Below, in pieces: positions 15,592 through 22,570 of a stretch of DNA of 64,000 nucleotides. Both the position numbers and the translations under genes were made by a program. Positions within the stretch are counted from its first letter, which is position 1. The number at the start of each line of letters is the position of its first letter. This DNA comes from Ectocarpus siliculosus (Eukaryota; Sar; Phaeophyceae; Ectocarpales; Ectocarpaceae), in the NCBI GenBank assembly GCA_000310025.1, contig FN649733.1, forward strand, positions 2,402,964 through 2,466,963, read 5' to 3'. A model generated the notes under the pieces. It ran no database searches. It saw nothing but the letters and a program-made list of their open reading frames with translations, and was not told the origin of the DNA.

Positions 15592-16227
15592 TTATTCCCC
15601 GTAGATGAGATGGCGAGCTTCGAGCGCAGCCCCGAGAACCACCATCTCGTCCGACTGCTCGGCAGACGAGATCACCCCCGCCCCGCCCCCGCCTCCGGCC
15701 TTCCCGAATATCTTGGAGGCGAAGTCTTGGAGTGCAGGCGTTCGGGAGCAGCCTCCGATCACCAGGACGGCCTTGAGGGCGGAGGCGTCCACTTGGGCCA
15801 ACTTCAAGGCGCTTTCGCACGGTCCTTCCGCCTGCGGGATACGCGGAGTGTAGATGCCATCGGTCAGGGGAAAAGCAGCAGCAGCGCTACATACGTCGAC
15901 ACGTGTGTACCCATTACAGTGGTGCCGATAATGTGGTCGCTATTTATTTCAGGGTGACCCCAGATCGGACTTCATCAGTTCGGGAGGCAAGGCCGTGCTG
16001 TGGGGGGGGGATGCACTCATGTTTCGCATGCCTTAGTTGTTAAAAACCATTGACCATGCGGTAGGTAGAAATCTGCGAGGCGGATAAATAAATGGGGCAA
16101 CGGAAAATGACGTCGTAGAGACTTTTTGTATTCATTTCTGTGTGTGGACCCAGCACTTGTTTTCGAGCAAGACAAGGCATGGCCCAACTCCCAAACCCGG
16201 GGAACGAGAGAGAAAAGAGAGGGAGAG

Positions 16228-16290
<63 letters not shown>

Positions 16291-19200: not shown

Positions 19201-22200
19201 ACATCCGCCGTTTCCCACCACCACTAACATCGCCACCACCACCATCACCAAGCCCCACGGCTACACCCTCATCGCCATCCTCCGCCCCGCCCCGCCACTA
19301 CCCTTCTCGTCATCCTCACCTTATGCTCCCCCAGGGCCTTGATGTTGGTGAGCATCAGACCCATCGATTCCTGAGCCGTCAAAACTTTCCCCCCCTCCCC
19401 GACCCTCAGCCCGGCCATACCCCCTTCCCCCTCTTCCAGCACGCCTCCTCCCAGAGCCCCGGCGGACGCAGACGCGGCGATCGCCTGCGATTCCGGCCCG
19501 AGAAATGGAAGGCCCAGCAGCGGCTGCACCCCTAGCATTGTCGTCGACGCTGACTGCGAACAGACGTCAGGGGGGAGGTAGAGGGGGGGGGTAAGGATGA
19601 GGAGATGACGTCTAGCACTGATCAGGTGTGGCCTGACTAGAAGGTATGTGCTTAGGGTAGGACTTGCAGGGTACTTGCTTGGCTTGGGCTGCGAGCTAGC
19701 ACGTCCGACGTGGCGCGATCAGGCAGCGACAAAGCCTGGGTTTGGAAGACACCGGTGTAATGCGTGTGGAGGGCGGATGCATGTCGGTGGTCGCGGGACC
19801 CCCAAGCTCCAGGTGAAGAGAGAGAGAGAGAGAGCGCGCGCGGAGGCGGTCTCGTTTGCTAGGGACTCTCCTGCTCAGCTTACAGCAAGGGGGTGTCCTC
19901 AGGCCGGGAGCAACCACGGCTCAAAATCAACCCAAACAGCAAACCCCAGTGTGCACCCTTAAGCCTAATGATGGCATGATGACGTGCGGCGGTGAGCGAC
20001 CAACAGACACGAGATGTTTATTACAAGGTTGTGGGTGACACATTCTTCGACGCACCCGAATCCGTGCGCCTCTCACAATCACAGTCACACACACACACTT
20101 GCGTCTGTCTTATTATTGTTCGGCCGGACAGCGCGGTCGATGCCAGCAACACACACACACACACACACACAGAGAAAAGTGCTGCTCTGCACCTCAAATC
20201 TTTGCGCCCTGGCAATGCTCCCGACGATGGGGTCTCCCCCTCCCTTGAAGGCCACGCACGCAGGCGTCCACCGGCTTCCCTCGCGGTTCTCGACCACCTT
20301 TGCGGAGGCGCACGGGCGGCATTGCACAGGAGGGGGGCAGGGAGCGTCAACAGATGCAGTCGACGACCGCATGGTCCTATTGTAGGTGTCGAGGGCGGGC
20401 ATATATCATATATCACGCAGGAGGACAAAAAAAAAGCACCAAAGTAAGTGGTAGTGGTTTCATTGCCTCCATCGCGCCTTTGGACGATCTCTCGGCTCCA
20501 TCACGAGCTAGCTAGGCTTGCGTCCCCATCCGACGCCATCGCTTTCCCTCATATACGCACAGGTCAACACCGCAGAGCTTGAAGGCTGCGTGTCTCGGTG
20601 TCGCATCGCACAGCGCTCTCGTGGGCCGAGATCAGTCCATTGTCGTATCCGTAGCAACCCAAGCCTTCAGCTTGACTCGAAAGCTACAATTGCATTGGAA
20701 GCGCCATAAAACCAACAACGCCCCCCTAGTTTCTACGATCCCATACAACACAACCCCTTGACCCCATCTCCAACCGTACGGTCTCCTCTTAGTGGCATGG
20801 ACTCAACCTACATAAGTAGCCTTGAATCTCACGAGCCAATCAACAAGTCTCAAAAACAAACGCTAAACCACAGCACAAACCCCCCCGCTTCCCCCCCAGA
20901 CCATTGGTAGCTATTACGAGGGTAAAGATGCGACGCTGATCCTGTACCTCCGCACAGAACTCGCCTACGGTTTGACCCCGCAGCAGATCGGTCGTCCAAG
21001 TCACATACGAGTCGGAGACGCGCTCTGAGCAAGACGGCGCCAAACCATTACCCACGCAGCTCGGCGTCTCTGGAAACACGAAGCCTCTTCTCTCACCTCC
21101 GGTCGCGTCTCAATCGAACTTGCGAACGCCAGCCGAAGATTGGTCACTCCCACGTCCAGCCCAAAGGCCGGCCCGTCCGACGGCACCCCATCTCCAGGTC
21201 CTGCGGCGCAATCACCGTGTAGCGTGTATAAGGTTAATACAGCAGCAACGGTATCGCAAGGTAGACACGCGTGTTTGTGTTCCTGTCCAGTAGTCTCCTC
21301 TCGGACTGCTTCGGAAGGAGGACCACCACTAATGTTCGCTGAAAAAAAGTACGGTCAAGGGCAGCGTAGTCGGATGGTACGGCAAACTCGGGGTGTACTG
21401 ATTGCGCACAGTGCTAGCATAGAGGAAACAGATAAAGGCAATCCCGCCAGCGTCCAAGCCCTGCCCTCCACCTTCCTATTCCACGCTTGCACCTTGTTGG
21501 TGCTATACATGCGGAAAGCGATGGTTGGTGTGCCTGGACTAAGGCATGAACAAGTGCTTCCTTTGTCCGTGCCAGCTCTAAGTCGATCTTCCGCTTCCCA
21601 AGCCAAGTACTAGCGACGCTAGGACCTAGCAACAAGGCCCGCCAAGCGCTTCTAGCCTTTGGAAACGGCTGTGCACGAAGACACGGAACACAGCTGCGAC
21701 GCGCATCGACGACAACGTGCACGCGCACGCACGAGCTGCAAAGTGACAGGGTGTACTCAAATCTCAACAGCCAACACATGCCGAACGGGCATACGCCACT
21801 TTGAAGCAAAATAAGCAAAGCACGAGGATTGCAATGATGATGGTACATCATATGCAAGAAGATGCGGCATAAAGTAGGCACACCGCAGCATCTTTGTTAG
21901 GACAAACGCGCGTGCTATTGTTGCGGAGGTATGCTCACCTCCGCCGCCCCCGCCCCCGCCCCCGCCTCCTCCGCCGCCCGACTTTTTCTCTTGCTCCTCC
22001 ATTTCCTTCATCCGCTTCCCTTCAAGATTACAGTGAGAGACGTGGGCAAGAAGACGGTCAAGGGATGGCCCGCAGAAAAAGCTCCCACATAGTGTGGATG
22101 TACACAGCATGGGCCGGCCCATGAGCACGGACAACAGAAGGGAGACAAGAATGGGGTGTCCCGACAACGTCAATCGACCACGGCGAGACCAGTACACTGT

Positions 22201-22570
22201 GACGATGTGGCATCAACAGCTGGGTGTCCCGACAGAAACTACGTCCTGTCCCCTTAGGCTCGGCAGTCACCGAGTTCCCCCTTGGCATATTGCAGCCGCC
22301 ACAACACCCTCTCTTTGGCAGAGAACAAAATTGGTCCTCAACGATCGACCAAAACACCAGCACCGTTCAACCCAAGCCTTTTCTTTCGTGCTCAATAAGC
22401 CCGTCTTGCGTGCTCAAACGACACGCGCAAGGCCCTTTTAATCCATCCGCCCCGCCAGCGTTCCAAAACAAAGCAGCAAGTATTCCACCACCCCCACCTG
22501 CTCTGATGAGGTATCGAAGCCCCGTGGCCACGGCAGCCACCGCGAGCGCCCCCCCGATAACGGGTAGCAT
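15592..22570 (-). CDS. membrane-anchored Hsp70-like ATPase core lacking a substrate-binding domain (HSPA13/Stch-like)
   Basis: Ten exons join in phase: 22570-22498, 22019-21939, 21200-21097, 20297-20193, 19553-19320, 19001-18876, 18410-18279, 17831-17698, 17151-16989 and 15831-15592 (463 aa, stop TAA). Residues 1-24 form a hydrophobic signal-anchor (MLPVIGGALAVAAVATGLRY). A charged segment and a poly-Gly linker follow, then an Hsp70 nucleotide-binding domain from about residue 63: GLDVGVTN (phosphate 1, normally GTTxS), VVENREGSRWTP, CPAYFSDDQR, LDVGGRSAQ at 266-273 (phosphate 2, normally DLGGGTFD), [12 protein letters not shown], and GGCSRTP at 410-416 (adenosine motif). The protein ends right after this domain at HLIYGE, so the peptide-binding domain is absent. 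HSPA13/Stch has this same layout. An upstream in-frame ATG at 22732 would add 54 Arg-rich residues. The Gly-rich linkers and altered loops suggest weak or modified ATPase activity. Endomembrane location is inferred. Confidence 0.85.
15988..16052 (+). repeat. diverged fragment of the G-tract/ACTCAT repeat family
   Basis: A G-run followed by ATGCACTCATGTTTCGCATGCC, TTAGTTGTTA and CCATTGACCATGC matches the opening of the repeat units in the myosin introns (ACTCATAGTCGTGCATGCCGTAGTCGTTAGTCCATTGACC). It lies in the last intron of the Hsp70-like gene. Confidence 0.45.
16233..16289. repeat. (GA)n microsatellite
   Basis: Near-perfect GA dinucleotide tract in the last intron of the Hsp70-like gene. 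It produces spurious long charged reading frames. Confidence 0.9.

Follow-up and report, generated by a model that had tools for sequence, protein, structure and literature searches.

We analyzed a 64,000-nucleotide stretch of the genome of the brown alga Ectocarpus siliculosus (contig FN649733.1, positions 2,402,964 to 2,466,963 of the forward strand; hereafter the window, in whose own numbering all positions are given), which carries an Hsp70-like gene on its minus strand (22570..15592). Judged from its sequence, the predicted protein is a strongly diverged nucleotide-binding domain (NBD) of the DnaK/mitochondrial Hsp70 type. The divergence of this NBD appears to be general, and its special feature is what stays conserved: the subdomain IIB lobe, above all the hairpin that contacts the exchange factor GrpE in DnaK, is preserved as though it were under selection. 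Our tentative proposal is that the gene could encode a membrane-anchored, J-protein-blind and probably hydrolysis-dead DnaK-type NBD that binds an organellar GrpE-type exchange factor. An earlier annotation made from the DNA letters alone (the original prediction) had described the gene as a truncated, membrane-anchored Hsp70 with altered nucleotide loops and the layout of HSPA13/Stch.

The gene model joins ten exons in phase from the shorter of two possible starts. With the exon-8 acceptor at 17846, the coding sequence of 1407 nucleotides encodes 468 residues (47.2 kDa, isoelectric point 4.79), and the use of an AG acceptor at 17831 instead gives the 463-residue model of the original prediction. 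All nine introns are of the GT-AG type, the joined frame contains no internal stop codon, and none of 2000 base-shuffled copies of the coding sequence remained open, which bears out the ten in-phase exons predicted earlier. The G+C fraction at the three codon positions is 0.70/0.51/0.77 in the coding sequence vs 0.53 in the introns, and this intron-rich gene looks genuine. The hydrophobic N-terminus and the poly-Gly linker are also present as described, with a best 19-residue Kyte-Doolittle mean of 1.8 and a run of 14 Gly residues between the N-terminal segment and the NBD. An in-frame upstream ATG at 22732 would add 54 residues, giving a 522-residue protein. This extension is rich in Arg and has codon-position G+C fractions of 0.67/0.67/0.57, unlike the remaining coding sequence; if translated, it could fit a mitochondrial or other organellar presequence. 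By eye, we noticed no ochrophyte plastid motif. The features of the gene, with substitutions in DnaK numbering, are as follows.

22571..22732, minus strand: in-frame 5' extension (possible), adding 54 Arg-rich residues if translation begins at the ATG in the context GCCATGG
22498..22570, minus strand: exon 1 (short start), hydrophobic segment MLPVIGGALAVAAVATGLRYLI with a basic C-terminal flank
21939..22019, minus strand: exon 2, charged stretch and the greater part of the 14-Gly linker
21097..21200, minus strand: exon 3, phosphate-1 loop GLDVGVTN (T11V)
20193..20297, minus strand: exon 4, NBD subdomains IA/IB, VVENREGSRWTP
19320..19553, minus strand: exon 5, diverged subdomain IB with Gln at the position of the catalytic Lys (K70Q)
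18876..19001, minus strand: exon 6, CPAYFSDDQR with R167D, N170D and T173V
18279..18410, minus strand: exon 7, phosphate-2 loop DVGGRSAQ (G198R, T199S, F200A, D201Q)
17698..17846 (or 17831), minus strand: exon 8, beginning of subdomain IIB
16989..17151, minus strand: exon 9, subdomain IIB including the GrpE hairpin of DnaK type; identity to E. coli DnaK 50%
15592..15831, minus strand: exon 10, adenosine motif GGCSRTP, last NBD motif GAALEA (Q378E) and stop codon

When the predicted protein was scanned with hmmscan at an E-value of 0.001, PF00012 (Pfam HSP70) was the sole family reported (E 1.7e-62), with the match spanning profile positions 2-372 of 599. The stop codon follows directly after the last NBD motif, the 13 C-terminal residues being GAALEARHLIYGE, and there is no interdomain linker. 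Both the profile match suggested as a check in the original prediction and its claim that the protein ends right after the Hsp70 ATPase domain are upheld by these data. A tblastn search of the window with the substrate-binding domain (SBD) of E. coli DnaK returned three rows, the best with E 0.40 and none convincing, and the search with the E. coli DnaK NBD recovered exons 6, 8, 9 and 10 on the minus strand in their proper order, together with one additional chance row within a transketolase gene. Sequence might be hidden in the assembly gap at 12888-12987 (100 N), yet the Hsp70 frame ends before this gap. Intron 9 contains AG and AC microsatellites (16234-16289 and 16898-16921).

By similarity, the predicted protein is closest to DnaK and mortalin. 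Among the best 60 of 127 PDB sequences matched by phmmer, E. coli DnaK scored 178-183 bits and mortalin 167-171 bits, followed by other DnaKs from 114 (a fragment) to 167 bits, and by cytosolic and endoplasmic reticulum (ER) Hsp70s at 89-110 bits. DnaK also ranked first of eight NCBIfam families; its scores of 222.5 and, for a second DnaK model, 219.7 bits lie below the respective cut-offs of 648 and 822.55, in models that cover full-length DnaK where the window protein is an NBD only. Aligned with 14 references, the protein was 32.8-36.7% identical to nine DnaK-type rows, 25.8-28.0% to Hsc70, BiP, HscA and HscC, and 23.2% to a provisional HSPA13 sequence. The DnaK-type rows remained the nearest when exon 9 was omitted (30.7-34.6% vs 22.8-28.5%). 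Four of the references were taken from tblastn hits of this very protein and two from a peptide-pattern scan, a choice that tilts the comparison slightly toward the DnaK-type rows. The IIB hairpin has 27 residues in the window protein and in all nine DnaK-type rows, with 27 of 27 positions filled, vs 23 in Hsc70, 20 in BiP, 23 in HscC, 17 in HscA and 66 in HSPA13. The likeness to DnaK and mortalin (PF00012, NF001413) thus comprises the order of the NBD motifs, 33-37% identity, the long IIB hairpin, and the residues E28 and G32. Unlike DnaK and mortalin, the window protein has neither the interdomain linker nor an SBD, carries a hydrophobic N-terminus with a poly-Gly linker, and contains the substitutions K70Q, T11V, G198R, D201Q, R167D and Q378E.

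An IQ-TREE phylogeny of 15 rows failed to place the window protein, whose end branch is very long (4.53), which is why our assignment to the DnaK-type lineage draws on similarity and on the length of the hairpin and makes no use of the tree. With this long branch, the approximately unbiased (AU) test rejected a clade of the window protein with HSPA13 (p-AU 0.026), did not reject a clade with HSPA13, Hsc70 and BiP (p-AU 0.125), and gave a p-AU of 0.224 for the window protein with mortalin. The phylogenetic check with HSPA13 that the original prediction had proposed accordingly lends no support to kinship; grouping with ordinary full-length Hsp70s, which it had named as speaking against its own reading, was found by similarity and left unsettled by the tree. 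We also considered a recent bacterial or viral origin and rejected both. The bacterial matches examined were DnaKs of about 33-34% identity, and the seven of them that were retrieved have open frames spanning 605-790 codons. Among viral contigs, a pattern scan matched two stretches, none confirmed as a relative; recent transfer or contamination is therefore unsupported.

The catalytic site departs strongly from that of other Hsp70s. Among the columns invariant in all 14 references, 26 of 61 are changed in the window protein, vs 0-11 changed of 61-72 columns in leave-one-out controls, where HSPA13 gave the maximum (11/72). The changed columns include T11V, K70Q, R71P, G198R, T199S, D201Q, D231Q and K270R; E267T is also changed, at a column where HscA deviates as well. 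The active-ATPase residues K70, T11, T199 and D201 read Q, V, S and Q, respectively, and identity to the DnaK-type rows at the ATP contacts is 0.53 vs 0.92 among those rows. The kept residues are D8, G10, T12, P143, R151, E171, D194, G196, G197, G341, G342, R345 and D368. K70 was described to form a hydrogen bond to the gamma-phosphate and to stabilize the transition state, and the contacts of DnaK with the HPD motif of J-proteins are R167, Q378 and the linker residue L391 (PMC8215388; here and below, papers are cited from the available parts of their text). In the window protein, R167 is replaced by Asp and Q378 by Glu, and the linker with L391 is absent. Over seven positions of the J-contact and clamp set, identity to the DnaK-type rows is 0.00 (0/7) vs 0.94 among them, and the adjoining changes N170D and T173V fall on residues that presumably have a role in J-protein interaction. 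ATP hydrolysis is probably lost in such a protein, and nucleotide binding without hydrolysis is possible. The motifs DVGGRSAQ, GVTNLR and GGCSRTP named in the original prediction can be read directly in the protein, confirming the two altered phosphate loops, but with 26 invariant columns changed its account of the alterations was incomplete. A regulatory core instead of a folding chaperone fits our results; the wording "nucleotide-sensing ATPase core" is doubtful with K70, T11, G198 and D201 replaced.

The GrpE-binding region was conserved to a different degree. GrpE contacts DnaK at residues 28-33, 51-61 and the hairpin 276-302, and its dissociation constant increases from 3.8 to 120 nM by the Y285R mutation and to 440 nM by deletion of residues 285-295 of DnaK (PMC10825016). 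The long hairpin is retained in GrpE-dependent DnaKs and is shorter by 4 residues in Hsc70 and by 10 in HscA (PMC10825016), in agreement with the lengths of 27, 23 and 17 measured here. The window protein keeps the Tyr at DnaK position 285, and its hairpin is as similar to the nine DnaK-type rows (0.61) as these are to one another (0.62), ranking first of 356 overlapping 27-residue windows along the NBD. GPKHLDVM, a peptide inside the hairpin, had led to two of the nine references; when the test was repeated with the other seven, the values were 0.58 vs 0.62 (rank 2/352). Three references that had not been chosen by similarity (E. coli DnaK, mortalin and a provisional sequence of Synechocystis DnaK2) gave 0.58 vs 0.54, also at rank 2/352. 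Hairpin identity in five Hsp70s that are not of the DnaK type was 0.05-0.28. The contact strip 28-33, with E28 and G32 kept, is 0.60 identical vs 0.64 among seven DnaK-type rows. Across the NBD, with approximate subdomain borders, the identity ratio is 0.72 for IIB, compared with 0.51 for IA, 0.49 for IB and 0.44 for IIA, and after correction for conservation an 83-residue IIB stretch was the best of 378 overlapping placings.

Several observations weigh against our tentative proposal. For the GrpE strip in subdomain IB, examined over DnaK residues 49-61, conservation is lost (0.33 vs 0.79). The IIB stretch 233-259 is nearly as conserved as the hairpin (mean difference of -0.08 vs -0.04 with seven references), and a IIB helix lies outside the GrpE interface (PMC10825016); part of the IIB signal may therefore reflect upkeep of the fold. 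Shorter pieces of IIB are less special, since the value for 280-294 was reached by 12 and that for 255-315 by 37 of 378 placings. The windows compared overlap, and IIB was examined after exon 9 had stood out; exon 9 could also have been refreshed by gene conversion. Neither the phosphate loops nor the J-site helix are worse than the remaining NBD once corrected for conservation, as 256 and 270 of 378 shifted placings for the loops, and 204 of 378 for the helix, were as high or higher. To these points the inability of the tree to place the sequence has to be added.

Because the residues for hydrolysis, the HPD-receiving residues, the linker and the SBD have all been lost, the chaperone cycle should not run, and the protein is probably a regulator, not a folding machine. 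In the mechanism we propose, the N-terminal hydrophobic segment would tether the NBD to an organellar membrane, most likely that of mitochondria, where the NBD would bind a GrpE-type exchange factor (a Mge1 homologue). By sequestering or positioning this factor, the protein might tune the working mitochondrial Hsp70. GrpE acts in prokaryotes, mitochondria and chloroplasts (PMC8215388), which in a eukaryote restricts the place of such an interaction to one of the two organelles. If this is true, exchange-factor binding would have been separated from the chaperone cycle in a DnaK-type NBD, and the protein would offer a natural case for asking whether cells regulate organellar Hsp70 via competition for its exchange factor. 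To our knowledge, Hsp70 proteins consisting of an NBD alone are few. A partial literature search, covering titles and the openings of abstracts, revealed no DnaK-type NBD that lost hydrolysis and J-protein contacts and kept the GrpE hairpin; truncated plant Hsp70s of a different kind have been reported (PMC10687569). It is conceivable, though on balance unlikely, that the protein represents an undescribed class of Hsp70-derived regulators, namely a DnaK-lineage pseudo-ATPase head tethered to an organellar membrane that shed the chaperone, ATPase and J-protein functions and serves as a GrpE docking site or decoy.

The layout that led the original prediction to HSPA13/Stch is indeed shared, from the size class and the hydrophobic N-terminus through the linker to an NBD followed by a stop codon, but this likeness does not extend to kinship. 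We consider it very improbable that the window protein is an HSPA13-type ER regulator with an ER signal and an active NBD acting at the translocon. HSPA13 resembles eukaryotic ER and cytosolic Hsp70s and has intact catalytic residues; its identity of 23% falls short of the 33-37% to DnaK-type rows, it lacks the DnaK-type hairpin, and the AU test rejected the common clade. HSPA13 was reported as an SBD-less, active ATPase highly conserved across Eumetazoa, of which K100A and T230A were made as ATPase-deficient mutants (PMC9691929). The provisional HSPA13 sequence, in which the numbering of Lys100 and Thr230 is consistent with that report, retains both residues and canonical loops, whereas the equivalent of Lys100 is naturally Gln in the window protein. 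Judged by the positive-inside rule, the basic residues that flank the hydrophobic segment on its C-terminal side would also keep the NBD out of the lumen. That the gene is a functionless organellar Hsp70 copy in decay, still readable by chance, is somewhat less far-fetched, although still quite improbable. The very long branch, the altered catalytic site, the long Gly run, and phosphate loops that have diverged no further than the NBD at large would fit decay, but not ten exons with nine intact GT-AG introns, 463-468 stop-free codons, the codon-position G+C, and patchy conservation with IIB kept.

Two further explanations were weighed. Non-canonical Hsp70s such as Hsp110/Sse1 and Ssz1/HSPA14 have altered phosphate loops and function without hydrolysis or a folding cycle; Hsp110/Sse1 and Ssz1/HSPA14 belong to the cytosolic lineage and keep the SBD or part of it. 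The window protein shares such loops with them, in a comparison of described features. A non-canonical partner Hsp70 of this kind, an exchange factor or scaffold whose degenerate NBD would associate with a J-protein or a canonical Hsp70 and would need no hydrolysis, is unlikely but deserves consideration, as D8, E171, D194 and GG-x-x-R-x-P are kept and nucleotide binding is possible. However, Hsp110 and Ssz1 are of the eukaryotic cytosolic lineage with at least part of the SBD, and the window protein has acidic residues at the HPD contacts R167 and Q378. We regard as rather unlikely a slow but real ATP-binding or -hydrolyzing NBD that is unrelated to GrpE and serves a membrane client. It would account for the kept D8, T12, E171, D194, R345, D368 and adenosine Gly pair and for the loss of the GrpE contact strip in IB, but it is at odds with K70Q and D201Q and leaves the kept hairpin without explanation.

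We also compared the protein with SjHSP70-03 of the kelp Saccharina japonica, the shortest of 14 SjHSP70s, with a coding sequence of 1,407 bp and a listed length of 469 residues (PMC13312973). The coding sequence equals the 1,407 nucleotides of our 468-residue model in length, and SjHSP70-03 has an annotated signal peptide (PMC13312973). In contrast, its mass of 49.9 kDa and isoelectric point of 5.33 differ from the 47.2 kDa and 4.79 of the window protein. According to the same source, SjHSP70-03 falls in the cytoplasm-type cluster, was found in the nucleus and cytoplasm of rice protoplasts, and was not among ten heat-induced genes. Possible orthology, suggested by the equal length, is not supported by mass, isoelectric point or clade in a comparison by listed properties; the other exon-8 acceptor would also alter the length.

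Upstream of the Hsp70 gene, open reading frames at 23394-24352 on the minus strand resemble by eye an unconfirmed remnant of a retroelement without long terminal repeats; two of them were scanned, with no Pfam match at E 0.1. Exons of a transketolase gene lie on the plus strand at 30590-30892 (Transketolase_N, E 5.5e-15) and 36900-37427 (Transket_pyr, E 3e-19), and those of a myosin gene on the minus strand at 59699-63814, where Myosin_head was found in three open reading frames (E 5.7e-16, 1.6e-13 and 1.6e-12). The window has a G+C content of 53% and contains, with the gap at 12888-12987 mentioned above, assembly gaps of exactly 100 N at 32015-32114 and 42747-42846.

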